Assembly (NCBI GenBank): GCA_024711325.1
Contig: JANJTC010000005.1
Location: 558,001-622,000 of the forward strand
From: Bacteriovoracaceae bacterium
Lineage (GTDB): Bacteria > Bdellovibrionota > Bacteriovoracia > Bacteriovoracales > Bacteriovoracaceae
Reading direction: 5' to 3'
DNA length: 64,000 nt
Made by a program: the position numbers and the translations under genes. Positions 2,395 through 48,933 of the stretch are shown here, in pieces. The stretch's first letter is position 1. Each line of letters opens with the position of its first letter. Under the pieces are notes generated by a model. The model did no database searches. It had not been told where the DNA came from and saw nothing but the letters and a program-made list of their open reading frames with translations.

Positions 2395-2423
2395 TTGAAA
2401 ATAAACCGACTGGTTGGTATATT
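2395..2423 (+). promoter_or_regulatory. Promoter with embedded TetR-type operator, giving a leaderless start
   Basis: TTGAAA (2395-2400), 17-bp spacer, TATATT (2418-2423) with TG one base upstream (extended -10). The spacer holds the palindrome AACCGACTGGTT (2404-2415), whose centre resembles the ACCGACTGGT core described for NemR-like TetR operators. The -10 ends 6 nt before the ATG at 2430, so transcription should start at the start codon. Confidence 0.7.
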
Positions 2424-2429
2424 AAATCC

Positions 2430-3044
2430 ATGGCACGACCAAAAAAAGACGCACTCCAACAGTCCTCAAAAGATAAGCTGCTTGAAGCTGCCACGGTTCT
2501 CATTAGAACAAATGGCTATTCTTCCACGACAGTGGACGATCTTTGTCTAAAAGCAGGGGTGAGTAAGGGAACATTCTTTCATAACTTTAAATCAAAAGAA
2601 GAACTAGCTGTCGCAGCTGCTCAAAATTGGTCTTTGAAAACGGGAGAATTTTTTAAAGCAGCTCCTTATAATAAAAAGAAAGACCCCTTAGATCGCTTTC
2701 TGGGTTATATCAGATTTAGAAAAGAGATTCTTCAGGGAGATTTGCCAGAGTTTACCTGTCTTGTGGGAACGATGGTTCAAGAAACTTATGATTCCCATCC
2801 TGAGATTAAAGTGGCCTGTTATGAAAGTATTTTTGATCACGCTGAAAGTTTAAAAAGTGATATTCATTTGGCCCGCGAGCTCTACGCCAAAAGAAGTAAA
2901 TGGTCTTCAGAAAGCCTGGCCCTTCATACTCAAGCGGTTATTCAAGGGGCCTTCATTCTTGCCAAAGCAAGCGGGGACGTAAAAATTGCCTCTCAAAGCA
3001 TTGATCATCTCGAAAATTATATTCGGCTGCTTTTTAACAAGTAG
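2430..3044 (+). CDS. TetR/AcrR-family transcriptional repressor
   Basis: A 204-residue regulator. The N-terminal TetR DNA-binding domain covers about residues 10-57 and includes AATVLIRTNGYSSTTVDDLC and the recognition-helix segment AGVSKGTFFHNFKSKEEL. The remaining alpha-helical domain would bind an effector. I chose the ATG at 2430 (MARPKKDA..) over an in-frame ATG at 2382, because a promoter with an operator palindrome lies between them and that family's proteins usually begin RPK. This implies a leaderless, probably autoregulated transcript. The downstream SRPBCC and YciI genes are likely co-transcribed and so its likely targets. Confidence 0.9.
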   Translation: MARPKKDALQQSSKDKLLEAATVLIRTNGYSSTTVDDLCLKAGVSKGTFFHNFKSKEELAVAAAQNWSLKTGEFFKAAPYNKKKDPLDRFLGYIRFRKEILQGDLPEFTCLVGTMVQETYDSHPEIKVACYESIFDHAESLKSDIHLARELYAKRSKWSSESLALHTQAVIQGAFILAKASGDVKIASQSIDHLENYIRLLFNK

Positions 3045-3067
3045 TTAAACCTTCAAGGAGACAAGCA

Positions 3068-3511
3068 ATGTCTAATACAATCACTTTACATCGAGTCCTC
3101 AAGGCCCCTGTTAGTCGCGTTTACCGTGCTTTTACAAATCCTGATGCTCTTGCCTCCTGGATTCCTCCCTACGGTTTTATTGCCAAGGTTCATGAATTCA
3201 ATCCCGTTGTTGGTGGAAGCTATAGAATGTCCTTTATTAACTTCACTAATCAACAAGAGACTTTTTTCGGAGGAACCTACATTGAAATGAAGCCCAATGA
3301 GTTGCTCAAATACGTTGATAAGTTTGACGATCCAAATCTTCCAGGGGAAATGAAAGTGACAATTTCATTTAAAGAGGTTTCCTGCGGTACAGAGATCAAT
3401 ATAAGACAAGAAGGAATTCCTTCAGTGATTCCGACGGAGATGTGTTATCTCGGCTGGCAAGAATCTCTCATGAAACTTACTAAATTAGTTGAACCAGAAA
3501 TCAATCAATAG
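3068..3511 (+). CDS. SRPBCC/AHSA1-like (polyketide-cyclase fold) protein
   Basis: A 147-residue cytoplasmic protein with the AHSA1 pattern: an N-terminal strand ITLHRVLKAPVSRVYRAFTN, the motif DALASWIPP (residues about 25-33), GGSYRMSF, and a C-terminal helix with GWQESLMKL. The family forms a helix-grip fold with a hydrophobic cavity and is often encoded beside small regulators; ligands are seldom known. AAGGAGA precedes the ATG with good spacing. It sits 23 bp after the TetR gene and 8 bp before the YciI gene, so the three look like one operon. Confidence 0.85.
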   Translation: MSNTITLHRVLKAPVSRVYRAFTNPDALASWIPPYGFIAKVHEFNPVVGGSYRMSFINFTNQQETFFGGTYIEMKPNELLKYVDKFDDPNLPGEMKVTISFKEVSCGTEINIRQEGIPSVIPTEMCYLGWQESLMKLTKLVEPEINQ

Positions 3512-3519
3512 GATTTTTT

Positions 3520-3870
3520 ATGAAGAAATTTTTAGCAATCTATCGAGGCGAGCCGAAAGCCTCGGGCAACGACTGGGATAAACTCGCACCAGAAAAACAA
3601 AAAGAACTAATTGCAAAAGGTATGGAGGCCTGGGGAAATTGGATGAAGGAGCATTCGTCCCAAATAATTGAAACAGGAGGACCTTTAGGAAAGACCTTGG
3701 CCACTGGTAAAGAAGGCATTTCTTCCGTTACCAATAAAGATTGCGGTTATGTCATCATTCAGGCATCTTCCCATGAAGAAGCAGCGAAGATGTTTTTAAA
3801 TCATCCGCATTTCTCTATTTTTCCTGGGGAGAATGTTGAAATCATGGAGTGCCTACCTATTCCTCAATAA
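3520..3870 (+). CDS. YciI/DGPF-family protein
   Basis: A 116-residue protein with the YCII-related ferredoxin-like fold pattern: an initial strand MKKFLAIYRGE, a helix with AWGNWMKEH, ETGGPLGKT, then GYVIIQASSHEEAAKMFLNHP and a final strand with VEIMECLP. It is often found next to SRPBCC and sigma/TetR regulators; the biochemical role of such copies is unknown. It is preceded by a modest TAGGAT Shine-Dalgarno and followed by a long hairpin that probably ends the operon. Confidence 0.85.
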   Translation: MKKFLAIYRGEPKASGNDWDKLAPEKQKELIAKGMEAWGNWMKEHSSQIIETGGPLGKTLATGKEGISSVTNKDCGYVIIQASSHEEAAKMFLNHPHFSIFPGENVEIMECLPIPQ

Positions 3871-3874
3871 AAAC

Positions 3875-3926
3875 ATATCCAACCTCTGAAGAATGTTTAA
3901 TTCAACAGAGATTGGATATACTTTTC
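3875..3926 (+). terminator. Likely terminator after the tetR-SRPBCC-yciI operon
   Basis: Arms 3875-3888 and 3906-3919 pair at 13 of 14 positions around a 17-nt loop and are followed by ACTTTT. The U tract is short, so strength is uncertain. Confidence 0.5.
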
Positions 3927-4058
3927 GCCATTTATTCTTGGCGTTCTAAAAACCAGAAATGCACTTCAAATAATTGAAAGCTTACGAAATCCAAAAAACA
4001 TGTCAGATCTTCTTGCTTTCCAAACGATAATATCCTTCATCCAAGGAAGGAGGCGCTT

Positions 4059-5006
4059 TTGAAAACAAATATTTTTGTTCCAAGTTTTTTTCTCGCCCGC
4101 AAAGACCAACTCATCCGTATAGATCGTCCCATGATCATTGGTCGCTCCGAAGGAGATATTGTCCTGGAGGAGGACGATCTGCTCAGTGCTGCACATTGCA
4201 TGATTCGACCGCAACTTTTAGAAGCATTTATTAAAGATCTGAAAAGTAGAAATGGTGTCTTTGTTAACAAAAAGAAAATAGAACCGAATGTGGAAGTAAA
4301 ACTGAATCCAGGTGACGCTGTTCAGATAGGCAGCCATGAGTATACTTTTTTCGATAAAGAAGATGAGGCCAAAAAAACTCTTCCTAAGGAGAGTCGCAGA
4401 AAACATCCAAGACCCGAAAATCTTTACGGACCTGAAAATCTTCTTACCTTTTATGCTGCTCCTTATGCCTTTAGAGGGCTCTACCTTCTCGTTCTATTAG
4501 GAACAGTAGCAAGCTTTTTCCTCAATCTTCATCTAGATATGAAGATTCCTCGTGAGCTTATCTTTTTGGAAAGTCTCTATAATCAAGATATCTTTGTCAG
4601 TGGATTGAAGCTTTTATTCCTGGTATGGCTTGCTTGTTTGGGTCATGGTTTTCTCATGACGATTTATTTCAACCGAAATCCTGTCAGAAAAGGAATCAGC
4701 CTGGCGGTTTTTTGTTTTGTGATTTTCTTTATGGTGGATTTTCAATATGGACCACTAGGTGGAATTAAACGTTATCTCATTGATAGAGAAAATCTGGAAA
4801 GATTGGATATTAGCGATAAGGCCATTGTGAATTTAATAAACATTATTGGCCATAAAGAAGCTATGGCAAAATCTTTTGCTCAGTCTAAACGTAAGATAGG
4901 GGGGGAACAGCTGGCCTTCCTGAGTAAAGATTATAAGGAAGTTATTAATCGCCTTGATCGAAAAATTGCTCGTTTGAGTAAGAATAAACAGTCCGGTCGA
5001 AAATAA
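4059..5006 (+). CDS. FHA-domain membrane protein
   Basis: A 315-residue protein starting at TTG, chosen because AAGGAAGGAGG lies just upstream. Residues about 20-110 form a forkhead-associated domain with the phosphothreonine-binding signatures GRSEGDI, SAAHCMI and SRNGVFVN. Three hydrophobic segments follow at about 135-160, 180-207 and 213-232, then a basic C-terminal tail. The FHA domain would sit in the cytoplasm and bind a phosphothreonine partner. Candidate kinases include the one at 32240, but no direct link is visible. It stands alone between the yciI operon and the 2H phosphoesterase. Function beyond phosphopeptide binding is unknown. Confidence 0.8.
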   Translation: MKTNIFVPSFFLARKDQLIRIDRPMIIGRSEGDIVLEEDDLLSAAHCMIRPQLLEAFIKDLKSRNGVFVNKKKIEPNVEVKLNPGDAVQIGSHEYTFFDKEDEAKKTLPKESRRKHPRPENLYGPENLLTFYAAPYAFRGLYLLVLLGTVASFFLNLHLDMKIPRELIFLESLYNQDIFVSGLKLLFLVWLACLGHGFLMTIYFNRNPVRKGISLAVFCFVIFFMVDFQYGPLGGIKRYLIDRENLERLDISDKAIVNLINIIGHKEAMAKSFAQSKRKIGGEQLAFLSKDYKEVINRLDRKIARLSKNKQSGRK

Positions 5007-5012
5007 GATTGG

Positions 5013-5040
5013 ATATCAATTATTAGATATCAAGTATTAG
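5013..5040. repeat. Tandem 14-bp repeat, two copies
   Basis: ATATCAATTATTAG (5013-5026) is followed directly by ATATCAAGTATTAG (5027-5040), one mismatch. It lies between the FHA gene stop and the next promoter; role unknown. Confidence 0.75.
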
Positions 5041-5097
5041 TGAATTTTCTAGATATTGAAAATCCCAAGGGGCTTTTATCAATGTCTCATGTCTTTA

Positions 5098-5126
5098 TTG
5101 CATTAACTCAAGACTTGAAACATAAT
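5098..5126 (+). promoter_or_regulatory. Promoter giving a leaderless 2H phosphoesterase mRNA
   Basis: TTGCAT (5098-5103), 17 bp, CATAAT (5121-5126), then 6 nt to the ATG at 5133. The -10 is five of six; the -35 is weaker. Confidence 0.5.
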
Positions 5127-5132
5127 CGCTGT

Positions 5133-5729
5133 ATGAAATACCTCATACTTTGCTTTCTCTTTTTAACCACCCAGGTCCAGGCCGCAACTTATAAATTATC
5201 CCAGGATATTTACAAGAATGAAAATGTTTCGTTCTTGATATATGACAATTACCTTACGATGAACATTAATTATGATCCCATTAAAAAATTGTTGGTTCAA
5301 TTAAATGATCAAAGTAAAATACCTTTGAAAAACAGAGGTGAGTCACACATCACGGTTGTCACTCCAATTGAGTATGATAACGTTCTCAATAAATATATAA
5401 GTATTCATGAGATAAATGCAATCGCTGCCAGGGTGAAAATACAGAAAACCCCTTTTGAGGTAGTGTGCATCGGGAAAGGATCAGTTAAAATTCGAGACAA
5501 AGAGGAATCAACTTTTTATATTGTGATTAAGTCTCCTGGTCTGTTAAATATCAGGAATGAGATTCATAAACTATTTGTTAAGAAGGGGGGTGCCAATGAA
5601 GCTTTTAACCCTGATAACTACCATCCTCATATAACCCTCGGATTCACTAATCGTGACTTGCATGAAAGTGATGGGATTATTAAAGATAAAAAAAGCTGTG
5701 TGGCCGAAATAAAAACAGGATTGTTTTAA
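5133..5729 (+). CDS. Exported 2H phosphoesterase-like protein
   Basis: A 198-residue protein with a signal peptide (MKYLILCFLFLTTQVQA). Two H-x-T motifs mark the 2H phosphoesterase fold: SHITVVTP at about residue 72 and HPHITLGF about 100 residues later. This superfamily includes 2',5' RNA ligase and cyclic phosphodiesterases acting on 2',3'-cyclic or 2'-5' bonds, normally in the cytoplasm; here export suggests periplasmic nucleotide or RNA-end processing. The ATG at 5133 is preferred because a promoter places the transcript start there and the protein then begins with a clean signal peptide. The alternative ATG at 5082 has an AAGGGG Shine-Dalgarno but would put 17 polar residues before it. 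Confidence 0.7.
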   Translation: MKYLILCFLFLTTQVQAATYKLSQDIYKNENVSFLIYDNYLTMNINYDPIKKLLVQLNDQSKIPLKNRGESHITVVTPIEYDNVLNKYISIHEINAIAARVKIQKTPFEVVCIGKGSVKIRDKEESTFYIVIKSPGLLNIRNEIHKLFVKKGGANEAFNPDNYHPHITLGFTNRDLHESDGIIKDKKSCVAEIKTGLF

Positions 5730-5740
5730 GAGAGAGAATT

Positions 5741-6382
5741 ATGGAGAATTTTGAAAAACGGCGTGATCGATTCGAGCTTTTTGAAGGGATGGAAAATCCG
5801 CTTTTGAATTTAACTTTCAATCTCGAGGTCCCTGACTTTCGTCCCTATTGCAAGCTTAACAATTTGCCGCCTTTCCATTTTTTCCTCTTCATTCTTTTTA
5901 AATCTCTCATGAAGGTAGAAAACTTTCGCTACCGGATTTTTCAAAATGAAGTTATTAAAATTGACCGGTTAATACCCTCTTACACTGTCATGAATGAAGA
6001 TCAAGTCTTAAACTTCACTCGCTTTGAGTATAGTGAAGAATTGAAAATATTCATTGAACGCAGCTTGAAATCCAGGGAAGAATCGACGAAATCCCGCAAG
6101 CTTTTGCATTCAGCAAAAGAGTTTTCTGAAAGAGAAATTAAAGACTATGTTTTTATTACCAGCATTCCTTGGTTGGAATTTACTTCAATTCAACATCCTG
6201 TAGCCAAATTTAAATCTGCGGATATTCCTTCGATAGCTTGGGGGAAATTCAAGTCAGGGCCTAATGGAATTCTCATCATGCCTTTTTCTGTTCAGGCACA
6301 TCATGGTTTCGTTGATGGTTATCACATTCATTTATTGGCCCAAGAAATTGCCCGGGAAATTGACGTGAGAATTAACTTATAA
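5741..6382 (+). CDS. Chloramphenicol-acetyltransferase-like acyltransferase
   Basis: A 213-residue protein of typical CAT length. The C-terminal FSVQAHHGFVDGYHI carries the catalytic histidine motif HHxxxDG of the CAT/BAHD-type acyl-CoA transferases. Earlier segments (RFELFEGMENPLLNLTFNLE, NFRYRIFQNEVI and SIPWLEFTSI) also align with the family pattern. It would transfer an acetyl group from acetyl-CoA to a hydroxyl. Substrate cannot be named, and the N-terminal part differs enough that drug resistance should not be assumed. GAGAGA precedes the ATG. The stop overlaps the convergent MAPEG gene by 11 bp. Confidence 0.8.
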   Translation: MENFEKRRDRFELFEGMENPLLNLTFNLEVPDFRPYCKLNNLPPFHFFLFILFKSLMKVENFRYRIFQNEVIKIDRLIPSYTVMNEDQVLNFTRFEYSEELKIFIERSLKSREESTKSRKLLHSAKEFSEREIKDYVFITSIPWLEFTSIQHPVAKFKSADIPSIAWGKFKSGPNGILIMPFSVQAHHGFVDGYHIHLLAQEIAREIDVRINL

Positions 6383-6767
6383 CTTTGGTAAGAAGATAGA
6401 AGTTGCACGCCAAAGACATGAAAAAATAAAGTGCCCGTTGTGGAACATTGCCAATGGCATAGCTTATGAAGTGGGCAACTCTGCTTAATAGGTACAAGGC
6501 AGCGGTTGCTTGCGTTAACGGATCAAACTTATTTAAAATTCCCAAAAGGATGATGGCCACTGCATAGGCCGGGAAATAGTCCTTTAGATTATTATAGGCA
6601 CGGTCACATCGAGAAGCCCAAGGTAGAAGTTCTTTCCCAGGAATGGGATCTCGGTTGGATGCTATCCATTTGCCTCCATAAGATTTCCATTTTCCGACGC
6701 TTCCTGGAACCCAAGCAAACATAAAGAGAATCGTCATCAGAGTTAAGCAAATGTATTCAAAGGCCAT
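6372..6767 (-). CDS. MAPEG-family integral membrane protein
   Basis: A 131-residue protein with four hydrophobic segments. The family signatures are the basic, polar loop after helix 1 with NRDP, then RCDRAYNNLKDYFPAYA (family motif around ERAxxNxxE) and LLSRVAHFISYAIGNVPQRA. MAPEG proteins are membrane trimers related to microsomal glutathione transferase; bacterial members have uncertain substrates. AGGATGA precedes the ATG. It lies 11 bp downstream of the beta-barrel gene and may share its transcript. Confidence 0.85.
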   Translation of the reverse strand: MAFEYICLTLMTILFMFAWVPGSVGKWKSYGGKWIASNRDPIPGKELLPWASRCDRAYNNLKDYFPAYAVAIILLGILNKFDPLTQATAALYLLSRVAHFISYAIGNVPQRALYFFMSLACNFYLLTKVIS

Positions 6768-6778
6768 AGTTAGTCATC

Positions 6779-7342
6779 CTATCTGGTAATAATGGTGAAT
6801 TCCAACATCGGCATTAAATTTGTAATTTTATCTGAAACAGTATTCTCAGTGGAACCTACTTTTTCTTCTTTCAAGCCAAGAGTATGGTAATGAATACCTG
6901 CCCCGAAACCCCAAAGGCGTGAAAGACGAAAGCGATAACCAACTCCGAATGACATACTAGAACCTGAAACTTCCCGGGATGAACCAGCTTTTTCACGATC
7001 GCCTTTTACATATGGATTCCAGTCGAAGGAAAAATAGAGATTATAGTTCTCATTCGTAAACCATTGAAGACGTGGCCCCATCTCCAAAAGTGAATATGTA
7101 TCTTCCGGAGATGTCCCTTGACTCAAAGAGGAACTCCACGAATGGATGTTCCATCCAAAGAAGAGAGTTTTCTTGCCATTTACAGAAGCACCTAAGAATG
7201 CTTTGTGAAAAGTTCGGCTTTCTTCAAATTCTGATTCAGCTGATCCATCTTTCTGCGACGAATAGTTAAGGCCATATTGAAGAAGAAAATTTGCCTGAGC
7301 AGTCATTGGGAAGACGAGTAGAAGAAGGAGCAAAAAACGCAT
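6779..7342 (-). CDS. Outer-membrane beta-barrel protein
   Basis: A 187-residue protein with a signal peptide (MRFLLLLLLVFPMTAQA) followed by alternating beta strands, such as KTLFFGWNIHSW, YNLYFSFDWNPYV and MSFGVGYRFRLSRLWGFGAG, and an aromatic/charged C-terminal strand (PMLEFTIITR). This is the pattern of a small 8-strand outer-membrane porin-like barrel. No closer family was recognised. GAGG precedes the ATG. Confidence 0.7.
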   Translation of the reverse strand: MRFLLLLLLVFPMTAQANFLLQYGLNYSSQKDGSAESEFEESRTFHKAFLGASVNGKKTLFFGWNIHSWSSSLSQGTSPEDTYSLLEMGPRLQWFTNENYNLYFSFDWNPYVKGDREKAGSSREVSGSSMSFGVGYRFRLSRLWGFGAGIHYHTLGLKEEKVGSTENTVSDKITNLMPMLEFTIITR

Positions 7343-7404
7343 AAAGAACCTCTAGAATTTATTTTAAGAATTTTCCCACAGATTTCAAATGTGTCCAAGT
7401 CGTA

Positions 7405-8483: not shown

Positions 8484-8495
8484 GAACTGATTAGT

Positions 8496-12150: not shown

Positions 12151-13047
12151 ACGTTCATCCAGTAAAAGAAGAGAAGGAAAAAAACTGATCTTTCTTTTTT
12201 CTAACTCGGCCTTTATCTCTGGTTTCAGATTACCACCAACCCATATTTGCGAATTTCCCAACAAATGACTTGAAAGTTCACTTAGATATTCAAGCGGTTC
12301 TTTATTGACGCCTAAAAGGATGGTATTTGCTTTTAATGCATTGGCAGCTTCTGCCAGCGACACTGCAGGTAAACTAGGTCCCATAAAGATGAAAGGTAAC
12401 CCATAGTGTACGCATAACATGGCGGCAGACAGAATCCCTATCTCATGAAGTTCACCTTCCGGTGTAGATATGAGTATCAGGTCTTTTTTAAATAGCTTTT
12501 TCTGATAGTGCTTACCTATCATTTGTCCCATGTGAAAAGAAACAATTGCGCTTAAAGTATGTTCCTGAGCTATCGAAAGTTCACCACGATCAACCTTAAT
12601 GCCAATTTCATAGAATAAGGGGATAATAATGTTCAGGCATAGTTCTCGGGGGGCCAATAAACCTTGGGCCTTTTCCAATTCATGAGAAATAATGTCAAGC
12701 TTGTAGGCGCTCAGCGCAATCTGAAAACTACTCAAAATCTTTTCGAAATCAATACGTTCATGTTGAGGAGTAACAACCTGAAGTTCCTCGTAAGGCCGAT
12801 GCATGAGAGAAGAGTAGATGACTTTAAGTTTTTCGAGATTTAAATGTGCAATCTTTCCAATACTCTGTCCAATCTCAGTCAAACGAAATAAAAGGGCCAG
12901 CTTCTCTATATCCTTTTCAGAATAGAGACGATGCTTATTGTCAGCTCGTTCCGGCACTACAGCATTATAACGCTTCTCCCACGCTCTGATGGTAGCACTT
13001 GCGACACCTGATAATTGAGAAGCTACTTGAATGTTAAAATACTTCAT
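12136..13047 (-). CDS. MerR-type regulator with B12-binding domain (CarA/CarH-like)
   Basis: A 303-residue protein. Residues 1-70 are a MerR winged helix (ASQLSGVASATIRAWEKRYN, then HRLYSEKDI). Residues 100-180 are the helical cobalamin cap and 185-300 a Rossmann-type B12 domain with the ligand motif ELHEIG (E199, H201, G204). CarH-type proteins repress in the dark as adenosylcobalamin tetramers. Here the cap motif that is normally Trp-x9-Glu-His reads Val152-x9-E162-H163, so the Trp that contacts the upper ligand is missing. It is divergent from acs, and an inverted repeat covers both start regions. No Shine-Dalgarno is seen; TAAAAT lies 7 nt upstream, suggesting a leaderless start. Confidence 0.85.
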   Translation of the reverse strand: MKYFNIQVASQLSGVASATIRAWEKRYNAVVPERADNKHRLYSEKDIEKLALLFRLTEIGQSIGKIAHLNLEKLKVIYSSLMHRPYEELQVVTPQHERIDFEKILSSFQIALSAYKLDIISHELEKAQGLLAPRELCLNIIIPLFYEIGIKVDRGELSIAQEHTLSAIVSFHMGQMIGKHYQKKLFKKDLILISTPEGELHEIGILSAAMLCVHYGLPFIFMGPSLPAVSLAEAANALKANTILLGVNKEPLEYLSELSSHLLGNSQIWVGGNLKPEIKAELEKRKISFFPSLLLLDERLSTL

Positions 13048-13076
13048 CCAGAATATTTTATCATAGTATAATCTGG
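13048..13076. promoter_or_regulatory. Inverted repeat over the divergent MerR/acs promoters
   Basis: CCAGAATAT and TATAATCTGG form imperfect arms. The repeat covers the MerR gene -10 (TAAAAT, 13060-13055) and a plus-strand TATAAT (13067-13072) that could serve acs. Probable autoregulatory operator. Confidence 0.45.
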
Positions 13077-13123
13077 AAAAGAAGTGTGCCGAATGACATG
13101 CTATTTCTAGCTAAAGGACGAAT

Positions 13124-15067
13124 ATGACTGATCAGAAGATTTATCCGGTTAAAAGTGAAATTGAAGCTACCTCTTATTTAAGGGGCATGAGCGCTTATAA
13201 TGAAATGTATGAACGTTCAATTAAGGATCCGGAAGGATTCTGGTTGGAGGCAGCGAAGAATTTGGATTGGTTCATAGGACCCAGGCGAGGAGGGGAAGGC
13301 GATTTTAAAAACGTTAACTATTCCTGGTTTATGGGTGGCAAGTTAAATGCCTCGTATAATTGCCTGGATCGTCATCTTGAAAAAAGAGGGAGTAAACCGG
13401 CAATAATTTGGGCCAAGGATGAACCAGGTCAATATCAGAAAATCACCTTTCAGGAAGTTTATGACAATGTTTGTAGATTGACGAATTTGATGCAGTCTTA
13501 TGGAGTTAAAAAAGGGGATAGAGTTTGTCTGTACTTACCCATGATTCCCGAACTTGTTTATTCAGTACTGGCCTGTGCTCGTCTTGGTGCCATTCATTCA
13601 GTTGTATTCGCTGGCTTTAGTTCAGACGCTCTTAAGGGACGAGTTCAGGATGCTGAATGCAAATTTATTATTACCGCTAATGAAGGATTAAGAGGTGGTA
13701 AAAAAATTCCACTCAAAAACATTACTGATGAGGCCATAAAAGATCTTAGTTTTGTTGAAACCGTGCTGGTTGTTCATCGCACTCCTGATGCCGTTAATAT
13801 GGTGCCGGGCCGTGATATTATCTACGAAGAGGAAATTAAAAAGTTCAGACCGGTGGCCCCATGTGAACCAATGGATGCAGAAGACCCTCTTTTTATCCTT
13901 TATACATCAGGTTCAACTGGAAAACCTAAGGGGGTTCTTCATACTACCGGTGGCTATACAACGTATGCTTCCTTCACTCATAAGTATGTTTTCGATTGCC
14001 ATGAAAGTGACATTTTCTTTTGTACCGCAGATATTGGATGGGTGACTGGTCACTCTTATGTCATCTACGGTCCACTAACTAATGGAACTACGTCAGTTCT
14101 TTTTGAATCGACGCCAACTTATCCTGATGCTGGGAGATCATGGCAAATTATAGATGATCTCAAGGCCACTATTTTTTATACAGCACCAACTGCACTTCGT
14201 TCCCTGGCCCAATTTGGAGATGAGTTCGTAAAAAGATATAAACGGACGAGTATTCGAATCCTGGGAACTGTAGGGGAACCCATCAATCCAGAAGTATGGA
14301 AGTGGTATCATGACGTCGTAGGTGAAGGACGTTGTGATATTGTCGATACTTGGTGGCAGACAGAAACCGGGGGAATTATGATTACTCCCATACCTGGTGT
14401 GACTCCCACCAAACCAGGTTCGGCCACATTACCGTTTTTTGGAGTTGAACCCATCATTGTGCAACCTGAAACAGGTAAAGTTTTAAAGGGGAATAATATT
14501 GAGGGTGCACTTTGCATAAAAAAAACATGGCCCGGCCTGGCCAGGACAATCTATAAGGATCACGAGCGATTTGTTGCAACTTATTTCACTCAATACCCTG
14601 GATATTATTTTACAGGAGATGGTTGCCGCAAAGATGGAAATGGTTATTACTGGATTACTGGTCGTATCGATGACGTGTTGAATGTTTCAGGTCATCGTTT
14701 AGGGACGGCCGAAATTGAAAGTGCCCTTATGGAGCATGAGAATGTGGCCGAAGCTGCAGTAGTGGGAATGCCTCATGATATCAAGGGCACAGGTATATAT
14801 GCTTATGTAATTCTAAATACTCCAGAATCAAACCCAGAGCTGATTGAAAGCATTAAGAACGTCGTGAGGGAAATGATCGGGCGTTTTGCTGCTCCTGATA
14901 TTATTCACATTACTAAAGGTCTGCCAAAAACTCGTTCCGGCAAAGTAATGCGAAGAATTCTTCGAAAAATTGCCGCAGCTGAATATTCAGGTTTGGGAGA
15001 TATTTCAACCTTGAGTGAGCCGGGAGTTGTCGAAGTCCTGGTTAAAGAGCATAAAAATTTAAGCTAA
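13124..15067 (+). CDS. acs: Acetyl-CoA synthetase (AMP-forming)
   Basis: A 647-residue enzyme of full family length, converting acetate, ATP and CoA to acetyl-CoA, AMP and PPi in the cytoplasm. Visible motifs are the P-loop YTSGSTGKPKG, the acetate-pocket region DTWWQTETGG, YYFTGDG, the hinge GRIDDVLNVSGHRLGTAEIE, and the C-terminal LPKTRSGKVMRRILRK with the catalytic, acetylatable lysine. The second Trp of WWQTE favours acetate over larger acids. AAAGGA precedes the ATG. It is divergent from the B12-binding MerR regulator. A long hairpin follows the stop. Confidence 0.95.
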   Translation: MTDQKIYPVKSEIEATSYLRGMSAYNEMYERSIKDPEGFWLEAAKNLDWFIGPRRGGEGDFKNVNYSWFMGGKLNASYNCLDRHLEKRGSKPAIIWAKDEPGQYQKITFQEVYDNVCRLTNLMQSYGVKKGDRVCLYLPMIPELVYSVLACARLGAIHSVVFAGFSSDALKGRVQDAECKFIITANEGLRGGKKIPLKNITDEAIKDLSFVETVLVVHRTPDAVNMVPGRDIIYEEEIKKFRPVAPCEPMDAEDPLFILYTSGSTGKPKGVLHTTGGYTTYASFTHKYVFDCHESDIFFCTADIGWVTGHSYVIYGPLTNGTTSVLFESTPTYPDAGRSWQIIDDLKATIFYTAPTALRSLAQFGDEFVKRYKRTSIRILGTVGEPINPEVWKWYHDVVGEGRCDIVDTWWQTETGGIMITPIPGVTPTKPGSATLPFFGVEPIIVQPETGKVLKGNNIEGALCIKKTWPGLARTIYKDHERFVATYFTQYPGYYFTGDGCRKDGNGYYWITGRIDDVLNVSGHRLGTAEIESALMEHENVAEAAVVGMPHDIKGTGIYAYVILNTPESNPELIESIKNVVREMIGRFAAPDIIHITKGLPKTRSGKVMRRILRKIAAAEYSGLGDISTLSEPGVVEVLVKEHKNLS

Positions 15068-24993: not shown

Positions 24994-25435
24994 GAGCACT
25001 CCATAAAAAAATGCATTCTATTCTTGGATCCTTACCTGAAATCTTTTTATAGCTTAAAGTTTTTTCTTTAACCGTGAGGCTCTCTGTCACTGTTCTTTCG
25101 AGATGTTTTAATCTAGGCGGGCAGGAATGAGTGGAAGTTACGTTAGTCAGAGTGCCACTCTTAAGAGTACTCAAAACATCTTCCGCACATTCAGCTTCAC
25201 TTGCCTCATTTAGGATTTCTTTTTTTTCAGAGGGAAGGGAAAAAGTAATGAGAGTTCCTACCATTAGAACTTCTTCACCTTGTTCACCTACAATTTTGAA
25301 AGGGCCGGGAGTGCAAACTTTATCTGAACCTGTTGTAAGTTTGAGCTGACCAGGACCAAGTCCCAGTGTGGTGGCATAACTAGAAGTTATCAGGCAGAAA
25401 TTAAGAAGCAGAAGTTTAAAGGCAGTCCTCATCAT
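24980..25435 (-). CDS. Small exported protein of unknown function
   Basis: A 151-residue protein with signal peptide (MMRTAFKLLLLNFCLITSSYA) and four cysteines in the mature part. The body is beta-rich with no recognised family. I place the start at 25435 because a consensus promoter (TTGTCA, 16 bp, TATAAT) ends 7 nt upstream of the ATG-ATG pair, so the mRNA should be leaderless. A longer frame from 25462 would begin upstream of the -10 box. It shares a transcript with the transglycosylase-like gene. Confidence 0.65.
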   Translation of the reverse strand: MMRTAFKLLLLNFCLITSSYATTLGLGPGQLKLTTGSDKVCTPGPFKIVGEQGEEVLMVGTLITFSLPSEKKEILNEASEAECAEDVLSTLKSGTLTNVTSTHSCPPRLKHLERTVTESLTVKEKTLSYKKISGKDPRIECIFLWSAHEKK

Positions 25436-25442
25436 TCCATTG

Positions 25443-25470
25443 ATTATAGGACATACCCGCATAATGACAA
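25443..25470 (-). promoter_or_regulatory. Consensus promoter giving a leaderless mRNA
   Basis: Minus strand: TTGTCA (25470-25465), 16-bp spacer, TATAAT (25448-25443), then 7 nt to the ATG at 25435. Confidence 0.75.
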
Positions 25471-34276: not shown

Positions 34277-34285
34277 TGCTAACAT
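34277..34285 (+). promoter_or_regulatory. Extended -10 for a leaderless prepilin-like gene
   Basis: TGC-TAACAT ends 6 nt before the ATG at 34292. The -35 is weak and no Shine-Dalgarno is present. Confidence 0.4.
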
Positions 34286-34291
34286 TAACAG

Positions 34292-35275
34292 ATGAAGAAA
34301 CTCTCGACTAAAGGCTTTGGTTTAATTGAAGCGTTGATAGCCACTGCTCTTCTGGGTGGAGTGGCACTGGGCTTTATGAAGCTGACTGAGAATATGAGTC
34401 GAGGACAGGTGACTTCTGAAACTAAGATGGAAGGGCTTGAGATGAAACGTCTCATATCGACCACTCTTTTGGATAAGGCCGCTTGTGATGCCACTTTCAC
34501 AGGAAAGGCGATCGGCGCCAATATCACTGAAATCAAAAATTCTTCAGGCATTCCGGTTTATGAAATCAATAAGCCTTATGGCGGGAACATGATTAAAATT
34601 AACTCCATGGTCACACGTGATTTAAATCAAGTCGGAAGTGACGGAACCCGGAAAGTGGAATTGATTATTGATCTGGAAAAAATTCGCACTCAATCTTACT
34701 CGCAGGTTAAAGACGCTATCATTCAACTTTTTGTCGTGGCCGATTCTCCGACGGGCATCATTATGGGTTGTATTAGTGATAGTCAGAAAATGCTTGAGGC
34801 CAATTGTGAATCTCTGGGTGGAACCTGGACCGGTATTGCTTGTGATCTGGAAAACTATGTAAAAAAAATCGGGGATACCATGACAGGTAAACTTACCTTG
34901 CCGGAGCTGGTTTCAACCGGTCCGATAAAAATTGGTGGAGGAGGATCTTGTTCAGCGGCCCAAGAAGGAAGTCAGCGCTACAATTCTGGCATCAAACAAA
35001 TGGAGTTTTGTAACGGTGTGGCCTGGGGGGCTCTAGGGGGAGGAGGTATTTCTGAAACGGTGGTGGTTACGGGACCGACATCTCCTTGCCGAGGAGCATC
35101 TGCGGTCACTTGTCCTTCAGGATACAAGATGACGGGTGGAGGTCATGAGTTTGCTGGCTCATGCGGATGCGGAGAAGAACATCGATTTCCTGTTTATAGT
35201 AAACCCAATGGTAACGGTTGGATTTCAACTGTTGAATGTGCTTACAACCGCGCCTTCGCCGTCTGTGTGAAGTGA
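34292..35275 (+). CDS. Prepilin-like protein with tail-fibre-like motif
   Basis: A 327-residue protein. The N-terminus TKGFGLIEALIATALLGGVA is a type IV prepilin leader: cleavage after Gly8, Phe+1, Glu+5, then a hydrophobic helix. The middle is pseudopilin-like. The C-terminal half has KKIGDTMTGKLTLPELVSTG, a motif common in phage tail fibres and trimeric adhesins, and then a Cys-rich end (PSGYKMTGGGHEFAGSCGCG). An extracellular adhesive tip or minor pilin is inferred. No other pilus genes are adjacent. The gene abuts the convergent ppsR with no gap. Confidence 0.75.
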   Translation: MKKLSTKGFGLIEALIATALLGGVALGFMKLTENMSRGQVTSETKMEGLEMKRLISTTLLDKAACDATFTGKAIGANITEIKNSSGIPVYEINKPYGGNMIKINSMVTRDLNQVGSDGTRKVELIIDLEKIRTQSYSQVKDAIIQLFVVADSPTGIIMGCISDSQKMLEANCESLGGTWTGIACDLENYVKKIGDTMTGKLTLPELVSTGPIKIGGGGSCSAAQEGSQRYNSGIKQMEFCNGVAWGALGGGGISETVVVTGPTSPCRGASAVTCPSGYKMTGGGHEFAGSCGCGEEHRFPVYSKPNGNGWISTVECAYNRAFAVCVK

Positions 35276-43424: not shown

Positions 43425-43452
43425 TAGACAAATTTACAGTATGTGGTAATAT
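43425..43452 (+). promoter_or_regulatory. higBA promoter, leaderless
   Basis: TAGACA (43425-43430), 16 bp, extended -10 TGG-TAATAT (TAATAT 43447-43452), then 7 nt to the ATG at 43460. Confidence 0.6.
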
Positions 43453-43459
43453 GGAAATA

Positions 43460-43753
43460 ATGATTAAGTCGATTACTGGTAAAATAACTAAAGATATTGT
43501 CCAGAAGGGGTCTTCGAAAAAATTCCCTGAAAGGCTTAATAGGCGCGCCATATTTTTACTAATGGCCTTAAGTGATGTCCTCACTTTTGATGATTTAAAA
43601 CGAATCTGCGAGCCTCCTTCATTAAAGCTTCATAAGCTAAAAGGTTCCATGAAAGAGTTTTGGTCTATTACGATTGAAAAACCATGGTGCATTATCTTTC
43701 GTTATGAGAAAGGCGAATTCCATGATGTGGAAATAGGAGATTATCATGATTGA
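43460..43753 (+). CDS. higB: HigB-family toxin (RelE/ParE superfamily)
   Basis: A 97-residue basic protein. The HigB ending EKPWCIIFRYEKGEFHDVEIGDYHD is complete, including the Trp, the FR turn and the final DYH, and SLKLHKLKGSMKEFWSI is the usual beta hairpin. HigB toxins cleave mRNA on translating ribosomes. The ATG at 43460 follows a promoter by 7 nt and no Shine-Dalgarno is seen, so an earlier ATG at 43451, which overlaps the -10, is rejected. It overlaps higA by 8 bp in the toxin-first order typical of HigBA. Confidence 0.88.
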   Translation: MIKSITGKITKDIVQKGSSKKFPERLNRRAIFLLMALSDVLTFDDLKRICEPPSLKLHKLKGSMKEFWSITIEKPWCIIFRYEKGEFHDVEIGDYHD

Positions 43754-44006: not shown

Positions 44007-44008
44007 AC

Positions 44009-44779
44009 TTAATATCTGATTTCGACAATTGCAAGCTCAGGTGAGCAGTTGATTCTCAGAGGAAGTATTGATGTCCCAATTCCTCGTGAGACATACATTT
44101 TAGAGATGCCTTTTTCAAACCATCCTTGATCATATTCTCCTATTCCATCTGGAATCCAGATACTACCTATTAGAGGAATTCTTATCTGACCACCATGGCT
44201 ATGTCCTGCAAAACTGAGATGAACATTTGACGGCACTTTGTCGAAGAATGAAGGGGAGTGGAAAAGTGATATTTTGAGATCTTGAGAAGGAATACCTTGG
44301 ATGATCTCTAGTTCAGGTTGTCCCTCTTCGCCATCGTCAAAACCAATTAACCATAGACCATTATCAATCTTTTTTACTTGATTAGTGAGATCAATGATTC
44401 CCGACTCATTCAGCAAATTTTCAAGATTTAGAATTGGCTCCCAGTACTCCCAATTTCCAGAAACAAAAAATACTCCTTGAGGAGCTCTTAATTTCTTTAA
44501 AACATCTCGGTACCCTTCAAGTGTTCCTGAAGGAGTTGCCATATCTCCAGTAATAACGATGATATCTGGCTTTTCGACCTCTAAAGTTCTAATTAGTTGT
44601 TGTTCTAATCTTCCGAGCCCCTTGGTATGCAAGTCAGTTACGTGAGCAAGTTTAATTTTTTTACCTGTTTGGGTCAGAGTGATGCTGTGACGACTCACAG
44701 TAAGAGTTGTTGTATGGAGATGGATGCTAGTGAGGATTATAAATAAGAAGATGATTATTAAAATGAATTTTTTCCTCAT
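44009..44779 (-). CDS. Membrane-anchored metallophosphoesterase (YkuE-like)
   Basis: A 256-residue protein with one N-terminal membrane anchor and a calcineurin-type domain: HVTDLH, ITGDMATP, VSGNWEYW and FAGHSHGGQIRIP. The GNWE variant in place of GNHD is common in this YkuE subgroup. It would hydrolyse a phosphoester on the outer face of the inner membrane. The start lies 19 bp from a divergent start codon; TATTAT sits 6 nt upstream, so the mRNA should be leaderless. Confidence 0.85.
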   Translation of the reverse strand: MRKKFILIIIFLFIILTSIHLHTTTLTVSRHSITLTQTGKKIKLAHVTDLHTKGLGRLEQQLIRTLEVEKPDIIVITGDMATPSGTLEGYRDVLKKLRAPQGVFFVSGNWEYWEPILNLENLLNESGIIDLTNQVKKIDNGLWLIGFDDGEEGQPELEIIQGIPSQDLKISLFHSPSFFDKVPSNVHLSFAGHSHGGQIRIPLIGSIWIPDGIGEYDQGWFEKGISKMYVSRGIGTSILPLRINCSPELAIVEIRY

Positions 44780-44784
44780 TTGCT

Positions 44785-44791
44785 TATAATA
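44785..44791. promoter_or_regulatory. Overlapping divergent -10 boxes, both giving leaderless mRNAs
   Basis: Plus strand TATAAT (44785-44790), 8 nt before the ATG at 44799. Minus strand TATTAT (44791-44786), 6 nt before the ATG at 44779, with TAGTCA 17 bp further upstream. The two boxes share five bases, so the promoters should exclude each other. Confidence 0.65.
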
Positions 44792-44798
44792 AATCCAT

Positions 44799-45449
44799 AT
44801 GAATGATTTGACTAAGATTTATACTCTTAAGGTTGAGGCCCAGAACCAACTTTACGAATGGCTGGACAAAGAAGTTCGTCCTCTTCCCAAAAAGTCAGAT
44901 GGATCTATCGATCCTTATGGACACGGTTTAGTTGATAATGATGTAGATGCTTTGAGACATGCTTTTGTATCTGGAGTTTATACTATTGAATTCAGCGAAC
45001 AGACAGCCGAGTTTATGGGAAGACTCAATGAATTCCGGGATTTTGATTCTAGTTCAGCGGCACCTGGTGCTGAGAACATGGACCTTTGGAATAATGCTTT
45101 TGGGAGAAAGGTTGCAAGGAAGTTTAAAACTTGGAGAGGTCTTTATGAATCTCTCCTGAAAGCGATGAAAGATGGCGACTTAATTTTGACTCCTACTGAT
45201 TTGAGGAGGTACAGAGGGGAGAAAAGAATTAAACGGATCCCTAAATCTTTTGTTATTAAAATTAAAGAAAATAAGTCTGGTGCAAATGTCGAATTCTTAG
45301 ATGTGCGACAGCGTAAAGTGTTGAGTAAGGATGAGTTTATACAGGCGATAAGGAAAGGGCAATATCCTGGATATGCTGTTAGAAAGCATCACTCAGGTGA
45401 CTTCCCATACTCAACTAGAGATAGGTTCAGTTTTAATAATCTTGGCTAA
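44799..45449 (+). CDS. Unassigned protein with RHA and MDxxNN motifs
   Basis: A 216-residue protein with no signal peptide or membrane helix. The N-terminal half holds NDVDALRHAFVSGVY, an acidic EFRDFD and ENMDLWNNAFGRKVARK, a set also seen in DUF6973-type domains that occur in putative polymorphic toxins and phage-like proteins. The C-terminal half is basic and beta-rich, ending in FSFNNLG. Catalysis through the His and Asp residues is possible but unproven. Its start is 19 bp from the divergent phosphoesterase gene and appears leaderless. No immunity gene is evident. Confidence 0.6.
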   Translation: MNDLTKIYTLKVEAQNQLYEWLDKEVRPLPKKSDGSIDPYGHGLVDNDVDALRHAFVSGVYTIEFSEQTAEFMGRLNEFRDFDSSSAAPGAENMDLWNNAFGRKVARKFKTWRGLYESLLKAMKDGDLILTPTDLRRYRGEKRIKRIPKSFVIKIKENKSGANVEFLDVRQRKVLSKDEFIQAIRKGQYPGYAVRKHHSGDFPYSTRDRFSFNNLG

Positions 45450-45502
45450 GGTTACTCTGGGATATTAAGGGTGCTCAATTCGAGCAAATGGAAAGTTAAA
45501 AC

Positions 45503-45928
45503 ATGAAAATTGAAAAGATGAGCTTTGAAGATATTGATCAAGTCATGGAACTCGCCCATCAACTTGGCTATCCCAATTCTAGAACTGAAATAAAAAACCG
45601 CTTTGAGTTAATCCAGGATCATCCAGATTATGCTCTTTTCGTAGCTAAGACCTCACGTGTGGTGGGTTTTATTCAAATCAATTTAGAACCGGTGACTTTG
45701 CTCATAGGCACACGGGCCGATGTGGCGGCCTTTGTTATTGATGAACAACATCGCGGACAAGGAATCGGAAAGCAACTTCTCAAACAGGCCGAAGAGTGGG
45801 CCCGTGAAAAATCCATTCCCCTTGTGCGCATTCGTTCTAATGTGAAGAGGGAGGATACTCGTCGTTTTTATTTAAGAGAAGGGTACGAGCTCTCAAAGAT
45901 TGCGAATTTTTTCACTAAAAAAATCTAA
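45503..45928 (+). CDS. GNAT-family N-acetyltransferase
   Basis: A 141-residue acetyltransferase of standard length. VAAFVIDEQHRGQGIGKQLLKQAEEWA contains the acetyl-CoA pyrophosphate loop (HRGQGIGKQ), followed by VRIRSNVKREDTRRFYLREGYEL. Substrate unknown. GGAAAG precedes the ATG. Followed by a terminator that mainly serves the convergent gene. Confidence 0.9.
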   Translation: MKIEKMSFEDIDQVMELAHQLGYPNSRTEIKNRFELIQDHPDYALFVAKTSRVVGFIQINLEPVTLLIGTRADVAAFVIDEQHRGQGIGKQLLKQAEEWAREKSIPLVRIRSNVKREDTRRFYLREGYELSKIANFFTKKI

Positions 45929-45954
45929 AAAAAAAGGCGCTCCCAAAGAGCGCC
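45927..45954 (-). terminator. Terminator of the isovaleryl-CoA-type dehydrogenase gene
   Basis: GGCGCTC (45936-45942) pairs with GAGCGCC (45948-45954), loop 5 nt. On the minus strand nine T follow. Confidence 0.85.
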
Positions 45955-45960
45955 CGTATT

Positions 45961-47106
45961 TTAAGATCTTAAAGCATCTCGCAGTAAATTTTTAGCAATG
46001 ATCATGATCATTACTTCGTTAGTCCCGGCCCCAATTTCATTTAGCTTATTATCTCTCATCATGCGCTCAACTGGAAACTCTCTAGAGTATCCATAACCGC
46101 CGTGAAGTTGAATGGCATCCAGAGCAATCTTGGTGGCCATCTTCGGAAGCTGAAGCTTAACCGCTGAAGCGAGACTATTAGATTTGTTGCCGTGATCGTA
46201 CTCATAACAAACAGTATAGAGCATGCGTCTCATTGCCTCTGTTTCAGAAAACATCTCAGCAATCATTTTTTGAATCATTTGAAAGTGAGCAAGATTTTTT
46301 CCAAACTGCTTTCTCTCTCCCGCGTACTTAATACACTGATCAAGGCAGGCCTGGGCTATTCCCAGAGAAATGCCGGCGATGGTGATGCGTTCGATCTCAA
46401 GATTTTTCATCATGTGAATGGTTGAATCGCCTTCATTACCCACACGGTTGGCCATAGGCACTTTACATTTTTGGAAAGAGAGTTCTCCTGTAGGTGAAGA
46501 GCGCATTCCCATTTTGTGGATTTCTTTTGAAACGGTAAAACCCGGAGTGCCTTTTTCAACGATAAAAGTGGTGAGGTCTTTTTTTCCAGCACCCGTACGT
46601 GTGTAAACATAGGCCACATCCGCATACTGAGCGTTAGTGATCCACATTTTGTTTCCGGTGATCTCGTAGAAGTCACCAGTTCGTACCGCTTTGGTTTGCA
46701 TGCCCACCGCATCCGATCCAAATTCCGGCTCACTCATTCCCATGCAACCCACATGTTCACCAGAGATGAGTTTAGGAAGATACTTCGCCTTTTGTTCGGC
46801 CGAGCCATTGTTACTTAAGTTATTCACACAAAGGATAGTGTGCGCGAGGTAGGAGAGAGTGGAGCCAGCACAGGCCTTACCAAATTCTTCCATCACGATC
46901 GTGGCAGCAGTTGCCCCCATACCTGATCCACCGTATTCCGGATCTGCGGTGATACCTAAAAGGCCCAGGTCACCCATGTGCTTGAAGGCCTTAAGGTTAA
47001 ATGTTTCTTCGTTGTCGTGCTTTTCGGCAAAGGGCGCGAGCTCATTTTGAGCGAAATCACGGCATACTTTTTGAATTTCTTTTTCTTCGGAGGTGAAAAA
47101 CCACAT
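45961..47106 (-). CDS. ivd: Isovaleryl-CoA-dehydrogenase-type acyl-CoA dehydrogenase
   Basis: A 381-residue FAD enzyme with GCMGMSEPEFGSDAVGM, KMWITNA, GMRSSPTGEL and MATKIALDAIQLHGGYGYSR. At the usual catalytic-Glu site it reads EIGAGTNEV (Ala in place of Glu). A Glu is instead present in NLEIERITIAG (E239), the position used by isovaleryl-CoA dehydrogenase. This supports leucine catabolism. No mcc, hmg or regulatory liu genes are adjacent, so the subtype is inferred from active-site layout only. AAAGGA precedes the ATG. Confidence 0.85.
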   Translation of the reverse strand: MWFFTSEEKEIQKVCRDFAQNELAPFAEKHDNEETFNLKAFKHMGDLGLLGITADPEYGGSGMGATAATIVMEEFGKACAGSTLSYLAHTILCVNNLSNNGSAEQKAKYLPKLISGEHVGCMGMSEPEFGSDAVGMQTKAVRTGDFYEITGNKMWITNAQYADVAYVYTRTGAGKKDLTTFIVEKGTPGFTVSKEIHKMGMRSSPTGELSFQKCKVPMANRVGNEGDSTIHMMKNLEIERITIAGISLGIAQACLDQCIKYAGERKQFGKNLAHFQMIQKMIAEMFSETEAMRRMLYTVCYEYDHGNKSNSLASAVKLQLPKMATKIALDAIQLHGGYGYSREFPVERMMRDNKLNEIGAGTNEVMIMIIAKNLLRDALRS

Positions 47107-47208
47107 AAATGAATCCTTTTCTAAGGGGGAAAGTGTAGCGGAAAAATCGGTCTTTGTGAATTTATGCGCGTCCCATTATTTTGATACACTTCTGAGCAGA
47201 TATCGAGC

Positions 47209-47214
47209 TAAAAT
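47209..47214 (+). promoter_or_regulatory. -10 box for a leaderless GTG start
   Basis: TAAAAT ends 6 nt before GTG at 47221. The -35 is weak. Confidence 0.4.
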
Positions 47215-47220
47215 GAAAAA

Positions 47221-48933
47221 GTGACTTATTTAGAAAAGACTAAGCAAAATGATCCCGTTCGCCCTGGTGAACAATGGTTTTTTTATTGGAAAACCTCTGC
47301 TTCCCTCTGGGAGAGCCGGATTGTTCAATATCCTCAGCATGAAGTGATCTTTATTCCTCTCTATTGGGGATTCCACGCGGAATCTTCTTCTGAGTGGGAT
47401 TTTGGGAAAATTCACCCAGAAAGGGATCTATTGAGGCTGACTCAGTTGTTGACGCAGCACAATCGCAGGTTTTGCTGGATTCTTCCACTGACACCTGCCC
47501 CTTATTTACCCAATGGGGGAGTTCCTTCTTTTTCCGCCCGCACGCTTTCAGTTGCCCAGGATGGAGTCCATCTGGCGGTTTTTGATCAGGAATTCAATTT
47601 AAATAAAATGTTTTCATTTTTTGAACCCAAGGTCTTCCAGGCCTGGAGCGCTTTTTTAAAGGCCTTCGGCCATTTTCTGGGTCAACATAAAATGAAAGCT
47701 CCCGTGTGGGGTGTGCAGTTTTCCTATTATCAGGATGGAGAAAAACATTCGTTCCTGGAAGACTGCTCAATTGCTTTTGAACAAGGCTTCTCACGCTTTT
47801 TAAAACAGAATCATCCAGAAGGCACTGAACTGACCGAACCTAAGAAGGAAGCTCTTCTGAGAGGAACCTTCACTGATGAGGTGGGGCACTTATTTCGCAG
47901 TAGCGCTGAAGCTGCCTTAGGACCATTCTGGAAAGGTGTGCAAAAGATCATTCCATTGGGTGGAAGTCCGAAAGAAACCATTCTTCGTTCTATACCTGGG
48001 GGAAAATCCCAGTTTGAATATACCAAAGATGTGTTCCATCACTTCATACATTCCGACTGGATCTCCAGTGCGCTTTTATCTCCCAATGAGAAGAAAGAGG
48101 TTCTCGGGTGGATTCTAAATGAGCATTTTGGCTCTCAGGAAATTGATCAGCGTTATCAGTACGGCTCACTTAAAGGAGATCTCTCTGATGAATTCAGACC
48201 CTTTGGTGTTATCGATATCTTTGGTGGTAAAAAACACAATCATTTTGGAAAATTAGGTCTTGTCTCTTTTTTAGACCAGCACTTTCGCTGGCTTTATCAG
48301 CGTCATGATGAATTGCCTTTTAACCCAGAATGGATAGATGCCAATCAAAACAAAATTAAATTTTTTCATGGTGAAGATTTAAGTCGAACGACCTTCAGTC
48401 AGATCCTGAAACTCTTCATGATGGGTCAGAGAATTCTTCTCGATAAGTCGGGACTTCTTGAAGGCCTGGACCAAAAACTTCAGATCTTTCTACTGGAAAA
48501 TAATCTTAAAACTCAGTCAGTGAACTTTATGACCAGTACTCAGATTTGTGAATTAGGTGAGGGGAGACTGGTATTGTTTGAAGGCGCGAGACTCCTGGAC
48601 AATCCTGACCGCGAAAAATTCTGGGTCCATATTTTTAAATATCTGAATCTGGCCCAACCAGAAATGAAGATGGATGAGGATGTCTTTAGTATGTGGAGGA
48701 TCAGAGCGACCTCTCCCCATGAATTGTCTTACCTCGATGTCAGACGGGTCAATCTTTACAATCCTACCAGCTATAAAAAAAATGTCTCGATCAAGACCAA
48801 TAAACATTTTGCTTTCATGAAGATGATTGATCCCACCCGGGCCAATGCTAAATCCACTCCAGAAGGAGTTGATGTAGAGCTGTTACCAAATGGTAAAATC
48901 GCCCTGGATTTCGGTCACTATGAGGAATCCTGA
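47221..48933 (+). CDS. Large protein with glycoside-hydrolase-like N-terminus
   Basis: A 570-residue protein without signal peptide. The N-terminal 150 residues resemble the first strands of a GH42/GH35-type TIM barrel (EVIFIPLYWGFHAESSSEWDFG; then FCWILPLTPAPYLPNGGVPSF), with a Trp/His/Glu-rich pattern. The middle and the C-terminal 200 residues (KLQIFLLENNLKTQSVNFMT, GEGRLVLFEGARLLD) are unassigned. A barrel fold is plausible but no catalytic Glu pair can be fixed. Starts at GTG with no Shine-Dalgarno. Its stop overlaps the next gene (TGATG). Confidence 0.65.
   Translation: MTYLEKTKQNDPVRPGEQWFFYWKTSASLWESRIVQYPQHEVIFIPLYWGFHAESSSEWDFGKIHPERDLLRLTQLLTQHNRRFCWILPLTPAPYLPNGGVPSFSARTLSVAQDGVHLAVFDQEFNLNKMFSFFEPKVFQAWSAFLKAFGHFLGQHKMKAPVWGVQFSYYQDGEKHSFLEDCSIAFEQGFSRFLKQNHPEGTELTEPKKEALLRGTFTDEVGHLFRSSAEAALGPFWKGVQKIIPLGGSPKETILRSIPGGKSQFEYTKDVFHHFIHSDWISSALLSPNEKKEVLGWILNEHFGSQEIDQRYQYGSLKGDLSDEFRPFGVIDIFGGKKHNHFGKLGLVSFLDQHFRWLYQRHDELPFNPEWIDANQNKIKFFHGEDLSRTTFSQILKLFMMGQRILLDKSGLLEGLDQKLQIFLLENNLKTQSVNFMTSTQICELGEGRLVLFEGARLLDNPDREKFWVHIFKYLNLAQPEMKMDEDVFSMWRIRATSPHELSYLDVRRVNLYNPTSYKKNVSIKTNKHFAFMKMIDPTRANAKSTPEGVDVELLPNGKIALDFGHYEES

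Follow-up and report, generated by a model that had tools for sequence, protein, structure and literature searches.

Putative leaderless genes with a -10 element next to the start codon in a Bacteriovoracaceae genome

Does a bacterium of the family Bacteriovoracaceae begin part of its transcripts directly at the start codon? The question is raised by a 64,000-nt stretch of a 3.55-Mb genome (contig 1, positions 558,001-622,000; hereafter the window), for which a sequence-only reading had listed nine genes with a -10 box 6-8 nt before the start, near-constant spacing, and no Shine-Dalgarno (SD) sequence. All nine hold up when scored site by site: each start is preceded at 6-8 nt by a -10-like hexamer, SD matches do not exceed 4 nt at any of them, and the spacers measure 6, 6, 7, 7, 6, 7, 6, 8, and 6 nt in ascending order of position (Table 1). 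We consider it highly probable that the nine sites are members of a class of sigma70-type promoters found throughout the genome, at which transcription starts on the start codon or no more than about 2 nt away from it.

At such promoters, RNA polymerase would recognise a -10 element whose end lies 6-7 nt short of the start codon, and the RNA would begin at the start codon itself. An SD site could not be accommodated in the resulting mRNA, and translation would presumably start with the ribosome on a 5'-terminal AUG or, occasionally, GUG. Leaderless starts would further exchange with SD-led starts in evolution, and at the divergent pair 44779/44799 a single overlapping -10 region appears to serve both directions.

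Position of the -10 box relative to the start codon

The genome was sampled in 40 stretches of 20 kb which, together with the window, amount to 864 kb or about a quarter of its length. Our gene caller, which relies on coding potential and start codon and ignores upstream signals, placed 832 genes in this sample, and the 802 with enough upstream DNA were scored. The -10 matrix is sigma70-like, and both it and the -35 matrix are of E. coli type. The chance level was obtained from 20 dinucleotide shuffles of the upstream DNA, with boxes counted per position.

The scan against shuffled upstream regions that the sequence-only reading had called for yields a clear excess of hexamers starting at -12, where 42 of 802 genes are boxed against 14.95 expected per position (Poisson p ~8e-9). 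A stricter -10 cut-off leaves 19 genes at this position against 4.95 expected. The peak is one position wide, at -12 only, and is carried by ATG starts, which are boxed in 40 of 712 cases (12.4 expected per position) and make up 40 of the 42 boxed genes. Moreover, SD matches of at least 5 nt precede just 3 of the 42 boxed genes, compared with 272 of all 802, and a -35 score of at least 3 accompanies 11 of the 42 boxes at -12, whereas boxes elsewhere reach it in 22 of 257 cases (p 0.002) and random positions in 8%. The excess at -12 corresponds to ~3.4% of genes; with other spacings and miscalled starts added, perhaps 3-5% of genes would be leaderless, the upper part of this range being a judgement. 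The position of the box and the depletion of SD sites, like the conservation described below, are direct results of the computation.

The same spacing stands out in the family. Exact TATAAT-N6-ATG occurs 1790 times in 30 family genomes compared with 1220 occurrences of TATAAT-N9-ATG, and the N6 form is the more frequent in 29 of them, the exception being G012. Clustering of such genes in the window was considered and rejected, as 4 of 68 called starts are boxed there and 44 of 734 elsewhere. Among the sampled stretches, two on contig 7 hold the most boxed starts, L056 (390-410 kb; 5 of 24 genes) and L057 (500-520 kb; 4 of 18).

Table 1. Start sites and associated elements in the window
Feature	Coordinates	Strand	Elements and remarks
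TetR-family gene, ATG 2430	2395..2432	+	TTGAAA (2395-2400), 17 nt, TATATT (2418-2423), 6 nt
2H phosphoesterase-like gene, ATG 5133	5098..5135	+	TTGCAT, 17 nt, CATAAT (5121-5126), 6 nt
MerR/B12-binding (CarH-like) gene, ATG 13047	13045..13060	-	TAAAAT (13055-13060), 7 nt
Gene with ATG 25435	25433..25470	-	TTGTCA (25465-25470), 16 nt, TATAAT (25443-25448), 7 nt
Gene with pilin-like N-terminus, ATG 34292	34280..34294	+	TAACAT (34280-34285), 6 nt
HigB-like toxin gene, ATG 43460	43425..43462	+	TAGACA (43425-43430), 16 nt, TAATAT (43447-43452), 7 nt
Divergent starts ATG 44779 (-) and ATG 44799 (+)	44777..44801	both	TATTAT 44786-44791 on -; TATAAT 44785-44790 on +
YaeI-like metallophosphoesterase gene	44009..44779	-	Match below NCBIfam cut-off; box TATTAT, spacer 6
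DUF6973 gene	44799..45449	+	Box TATAAT, spacer 8
47221 promoter	47185..47223	+	TACACTT (47185-47191), N17, TAAAATG (47209-47215); GTG 47221 6 nt past TAAAAT
570-aa gene starting at GTG 47221	47221..48933	+	Without Pfam or NCBIfam match

Within the window, the -35 score reaches at least 3 at 2430, 5133, 25435, and 43460, and an SD 4-mer, TAAG, lies inside the spacer of 44779. The claim that several of these starts differ from the longest-frame choice applies to four of the nine (2382 vs 2430, 5040 vs 5133, 25462 vs 25435, and 43451 vs 43460); start codons misplaced by longest-frame callers would here be put right. The 25435 protein has no Pfam or NCBIfam match, and the 34292 product has a weak ComGE match below cut-off. 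No Rfam match was found in the window.

Several further features were seen in the window. By eye, the TetR and HigB promoters contain dyad-like stretches resembling putative self-operators. The gap between the MerR/CarH-like gene and an acetyl-CoA synthetase-like gene (13047-13124) holds a CTTCTTTTCCAG block, possibly a regulator site, which is kept in most of the genus relatives compared. Among named matches, the protein of the acetyl-CoA synthetase-like gene comes closest to that of Bacteriovoracaceae bacterium UBA4096, with 99% identity. Between two annotated frames, a stretch of ~150 bases (1634-1780) recurs in several genus relatives, in some of them in 2-3 copies, with a mean column identity of 78% over 10 aligned copies and no Rfam match. 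Several copies read ...LELKQTVDLFSVIDMIKK... on the minus strand, in some followed by a stop, and the stretch thus resembles the final part of a repeated gene or element.

Conservation of the boxes and the two start arrangements at 47221

Eight of the nine boxes recur beyond G171, a near-identical sister genome with 91-95% DNA identity to the window. Duplicate homologs were left out of the counts, as were matches that started after residue 12, fell below 38% identity, or had no start codon close to the aligned one; as the relatives share common ancestry, the counts are not independent events. They are also small for 34292, TetR, 5133, and HigB, with 1, 2, 2, and 3 homologs in the fetched DNA, respectively. 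TATAAT or TATACT stands 6-7 nt before the start in all four homologs of 25435, whose protein identities range from 94 to 40%. Both TetR homologs (92 and 69%) carry TATATT-N6, the 69% identical one (L157) in the full arrangement TTGACA-17-TATATT-N6-ATG. Likewise, CATAAT-N6-ATG precedes both homologs of 5133 (94% and, in L129, 54%), and TAATAT-N7 all three HigB homologs (87-92%). The single homolog of 34292 is 96% identical.

The MerR gene provides the largest set of homologs. Its box is found in 12 of 30, including 11 of the 13 with more than 45% identity, and SD matches of at least 4 nt occur in 1 of the 12 boxed and 14 of the 18 unboxed homologs. Box and SD site replace each other in this gene.

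At 47221, two kinds of start stand behind one and the same promoter. Its pattern TACACTT-N17-TAAAATG keeps a constant spacing in an alignment of the window with eight relatives, which a pattern search upheld: 16 of 22 genus genomes contain it, with 17 matches in all, and 15 of these matches precede the 47221 homolog, no two of them in the same genome. In 11 of these 15 genomes the start lies 5-7 nt after the box. Eight have a start codon at 5-6 nt, GTG in seven and ATG in one, while three have an in-frame ATG 7 nt past the box plus an in-frame ATG overlapping it. The other four (G169, G177, G165, and G175) have a leader with GGAG, which spans 26-34 nt. Their aligned starts follow the box at 32-34 nt, and two of these genomes offer a GTG 6 nt earlier as an alternative. 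No aligned start falls between the short and the leadered positions in the 15 genomes. A separate homolog count for 47221, 7 of 8, includes a spurious box in G169 (L137), whose gene has a leader. Since both arrangements use the same promoter, this locus provides our strongest case for a functional short spacing and for interconversion of leaderless and leadered states. It amounts to a natural experiment, with the start codon on the presumed +1 or behind a GGAG leader in sister genomes, and makes the conversion directly testable.

A regulon governed by this promoter was rejected, as 15 of the 17 matches lie before the same gene. Across the genus the promoter hardly varies and is specific to this gene, yet its -35 part is unlike TTGACA; it may depend on an alternative sigma factor or an activator.

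The divergent pair 44779/44799

The starts of the metallophosphoesterase and DUF6973 genes lie 19 nt apart with TTATAATAA between them, and their -10 hexamers overlap on opposite strands. In nine genomes with both starts placed, the gap is either 18-19 nt (window, G171, G174, and G162) or 14 nt (G166, G170, G172, G087, and G143). G124 has a gap of 27 nt, and in G163 and a second copy in G166 one start only was placed. The DUF6973 side is boxed in all nine genomes and both sides in six: the metallophosphoesterase side carries a box in all four genomes of the 18-19 form (in G162 at 5 nt) and in two of the five of the gap-14 form (G170 and G172). The window's own copy is part of the homolog count for the metallophosphoesterase (7 of 11). 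With a spacing of 6 nt, the predicted start points would be 18 bp apart in the window and ~15 bp apart in the gap-14 form.

From these patterns we tentatively read the pair as a single bidirectional promoter of 14-19 bp, at which both start points would coincide with start codons and which selection would have kept in nine genomes in two forms, with gaps of 14 and 18-19 nt; we give this slightly less than an even chance. If true, a single overlapping -10 region would determine, on both strands, where two genes begin to be transcribed and translated.

Such an arrangement is not widespread: among the 132 divergent pairs in the sample, that of the window alone is boxed at both called starts across a gap below 45 nt. 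In 100 family genomes, the symmetric pattern CATNNTANNATNNTANNATG occurs at 40 sites and its reversed control at 10. Of 30 sites fetched, 3 have frames of at least 60 codons on both sides, two of these being the metallophosphoesterase/DUF6973 pair. Near-perfect palindromes such as CATGCTAAAATTTTAGCATG extend over a start codon in family genomes (L158, L167 and L172 position 1501; L159 position 671). These have a long frame on one side only and are operator-like, covering the -10 box and the start.

Alternative readings and comparison with known systems

Several results weigh against a leaderless reading of the boxed genes. About 15 of the 42 would be expected by chance, and single sites are therefore less sure than the class. 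SD matches of at least 4 nt persist in 15 of the 42 (476 of 802 overall), five of the nine window sites lack a good -35 element (score <3), and a partial homolog of 5133 outside the set counted above (L135, G175, 44%) has GGGAG before its ATG. GTG and TTG starts show no excess of boxes in the sample (2 of 90 vs 1.9 per position), so that the case for GTG 47221 rests on its own conservation. In the family, the N9 form itself exceeds its reversed control (1220 vs 912), and spacing thus explains only part of the raw N6 excess. Outside the family, 84 other genomes of the phylum show a small N6 excess as well (1245 vs 1035; higher in 53, with 1 tie).

Could the boxes then be chance hexamers, produced near starts by A+T-rich upstream DNA, of which the best were picked? 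The expected number of chance boxes and a window no denser than the sample would agree with this, as would the weak box of 34292, which appears the least certain of the nine sites because of its TAACAT hexamer, its weak -35 region, and its single, 96% identical homolog. A peak one position wide, the -35 and SD statistics, the recurrence of boxes in diverged homologs, and the preference of 29 of 30 family genomes for N6 over N9 make chance a very improbable account of the class. Alternatively, transcription might start upstream, a few nucleotides off, or from a second promoter in the neighbouring gene, and a short or weak leader would be used. The 8-nt spacer of 44799 would leave a leader of 1-2 nt given the usual 6-7 nt, a promoter inside DUF6973 could serve the metallophosphoesterase, whose side is well boxed in two of five gap-14 genomes, and the 27-nt gap of G124 also fits. 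We nevertheless hold short leaders to be unlikely, since at 47221 an SD leader precedes every start that is not placed at 5-7 nt, and SD sites are depleted in the boxed group. At the sequence level, the leaderless architecture of the class is well supported, as the one-position peak, SD depletion, -35 enrichment, conservation, and the SD sites of box-less homologs all point to it.

The sequence-only reading had gone further and proposed leaderless initiation as a regulatory class, made up mostly of regulators, exported proteins, and accessory genes; such a set might be controlled at translation, for instance under stress or by life-cycle phase. The leaderless part of the proposal agrees with the evidence above; its regulatory part finds no such support. 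Three of the nine window genes do encode a TetR protein, a MerR-like regulator, and a toxin, and in the part of Zheng et al. (PMC3160421) available to us the transcription COG class is richer in leaderless genes. We compared 48 boxed genes without SD sites with 168 SD genes for export and with 48 of these for Pfam matches, these 48 being the first among 96 drawn at random. By a crude hydrophobicity rule of our own, export-like N-termini show no significant difference (15 of 48 boxed vs 49 of 168 SD genes), and an enrichment of exported proteins was rejected. Transcription regulators, counted by Pfam as lower bounds, number at least 4 of 48 (two OmpR-type response regulators, one MerR, and one sigma54 activator) versus at least 1 of 48 controls (a CopG/BrnA-type antitoxin), a difference that is not significant (p 0.36); among the matches listed, the remaining boxed genes are mainly enzymes and transporters. 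A regulatory class is not supported by these comparisons and seems quite improbable. The class looks like ordinary leaderless genes, functionally mixed rather than a regulon.

These results make a case, from sequence alone, for leaderless genes in the Bacteriovoracaceae, relatives of predatory bacteria. Bdellovibrio-type bacteria were formerly classified in the delta-Proteobacteria. For that group, the accessible text of Zheng et al. (2011; PMC3160421) gives leaderless genes in 8 of 33 genomes, with a mean of 15.8%, and describes 'TA-led' genes in which a -10-like signal ~10 bp before the start replaces the SD sequence; the portion of its main text that we saw does not name Bdellovibrio. The genes described here have the same signal in place of the SD sequence, at a lower estimated frequency than that mean. 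The -10-motif genes of Deinococcus-Thermus, in what we saw of PMC12340547, likewise have a -10 region directly before the open reading frame (ORF), a specific spacing, and strengthening by -35 elements, but comprise ~30% of ORFs, far more than here. The start-site paper on B. bacteriovorus (PMC3627812) does not use the word leaderless in the part accessible to us, and no paper on leaderless genes in Bdellovibrio, Bacteriovorax, or Bdellovibrionota was found, judged by title and start of abstract. The kind is hence already known; within the literature searched, the genes described here are new members of it.

For the divergent pair, bidirectional promoters with symmetric -10 elements were reportedly described by Warman and co-workers in 2021. 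According to the section of PMC12825309 seen, such promoters in E. coli have common start-point distances of 10, 18, and 23 bp, 18 being the commonest. The window pair would resemble them in its opposed, overlapping -10 elements and its predicted distance of 18 bp; it differs in that its start points would also be start codons, and the ~15 bp of the gap-14 form is not among the common distances. In C-protein restriction-modification systems (PMC5333194, seen in part), both features have parallels, EcoRV having overlapping divergent promoters and the AhdI C gene a leaderless transcript, but they occur in different systems and with a C-protein regulator; no such regulator was seen here. Among the papers listed on leaderless together with divergent or bidirectional promoters, a weak test, no description of a double leaderless promoter appeared. 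Compared with these known arrangements, a promoter that is leaderless in both directions would be a variant worth an experiment.

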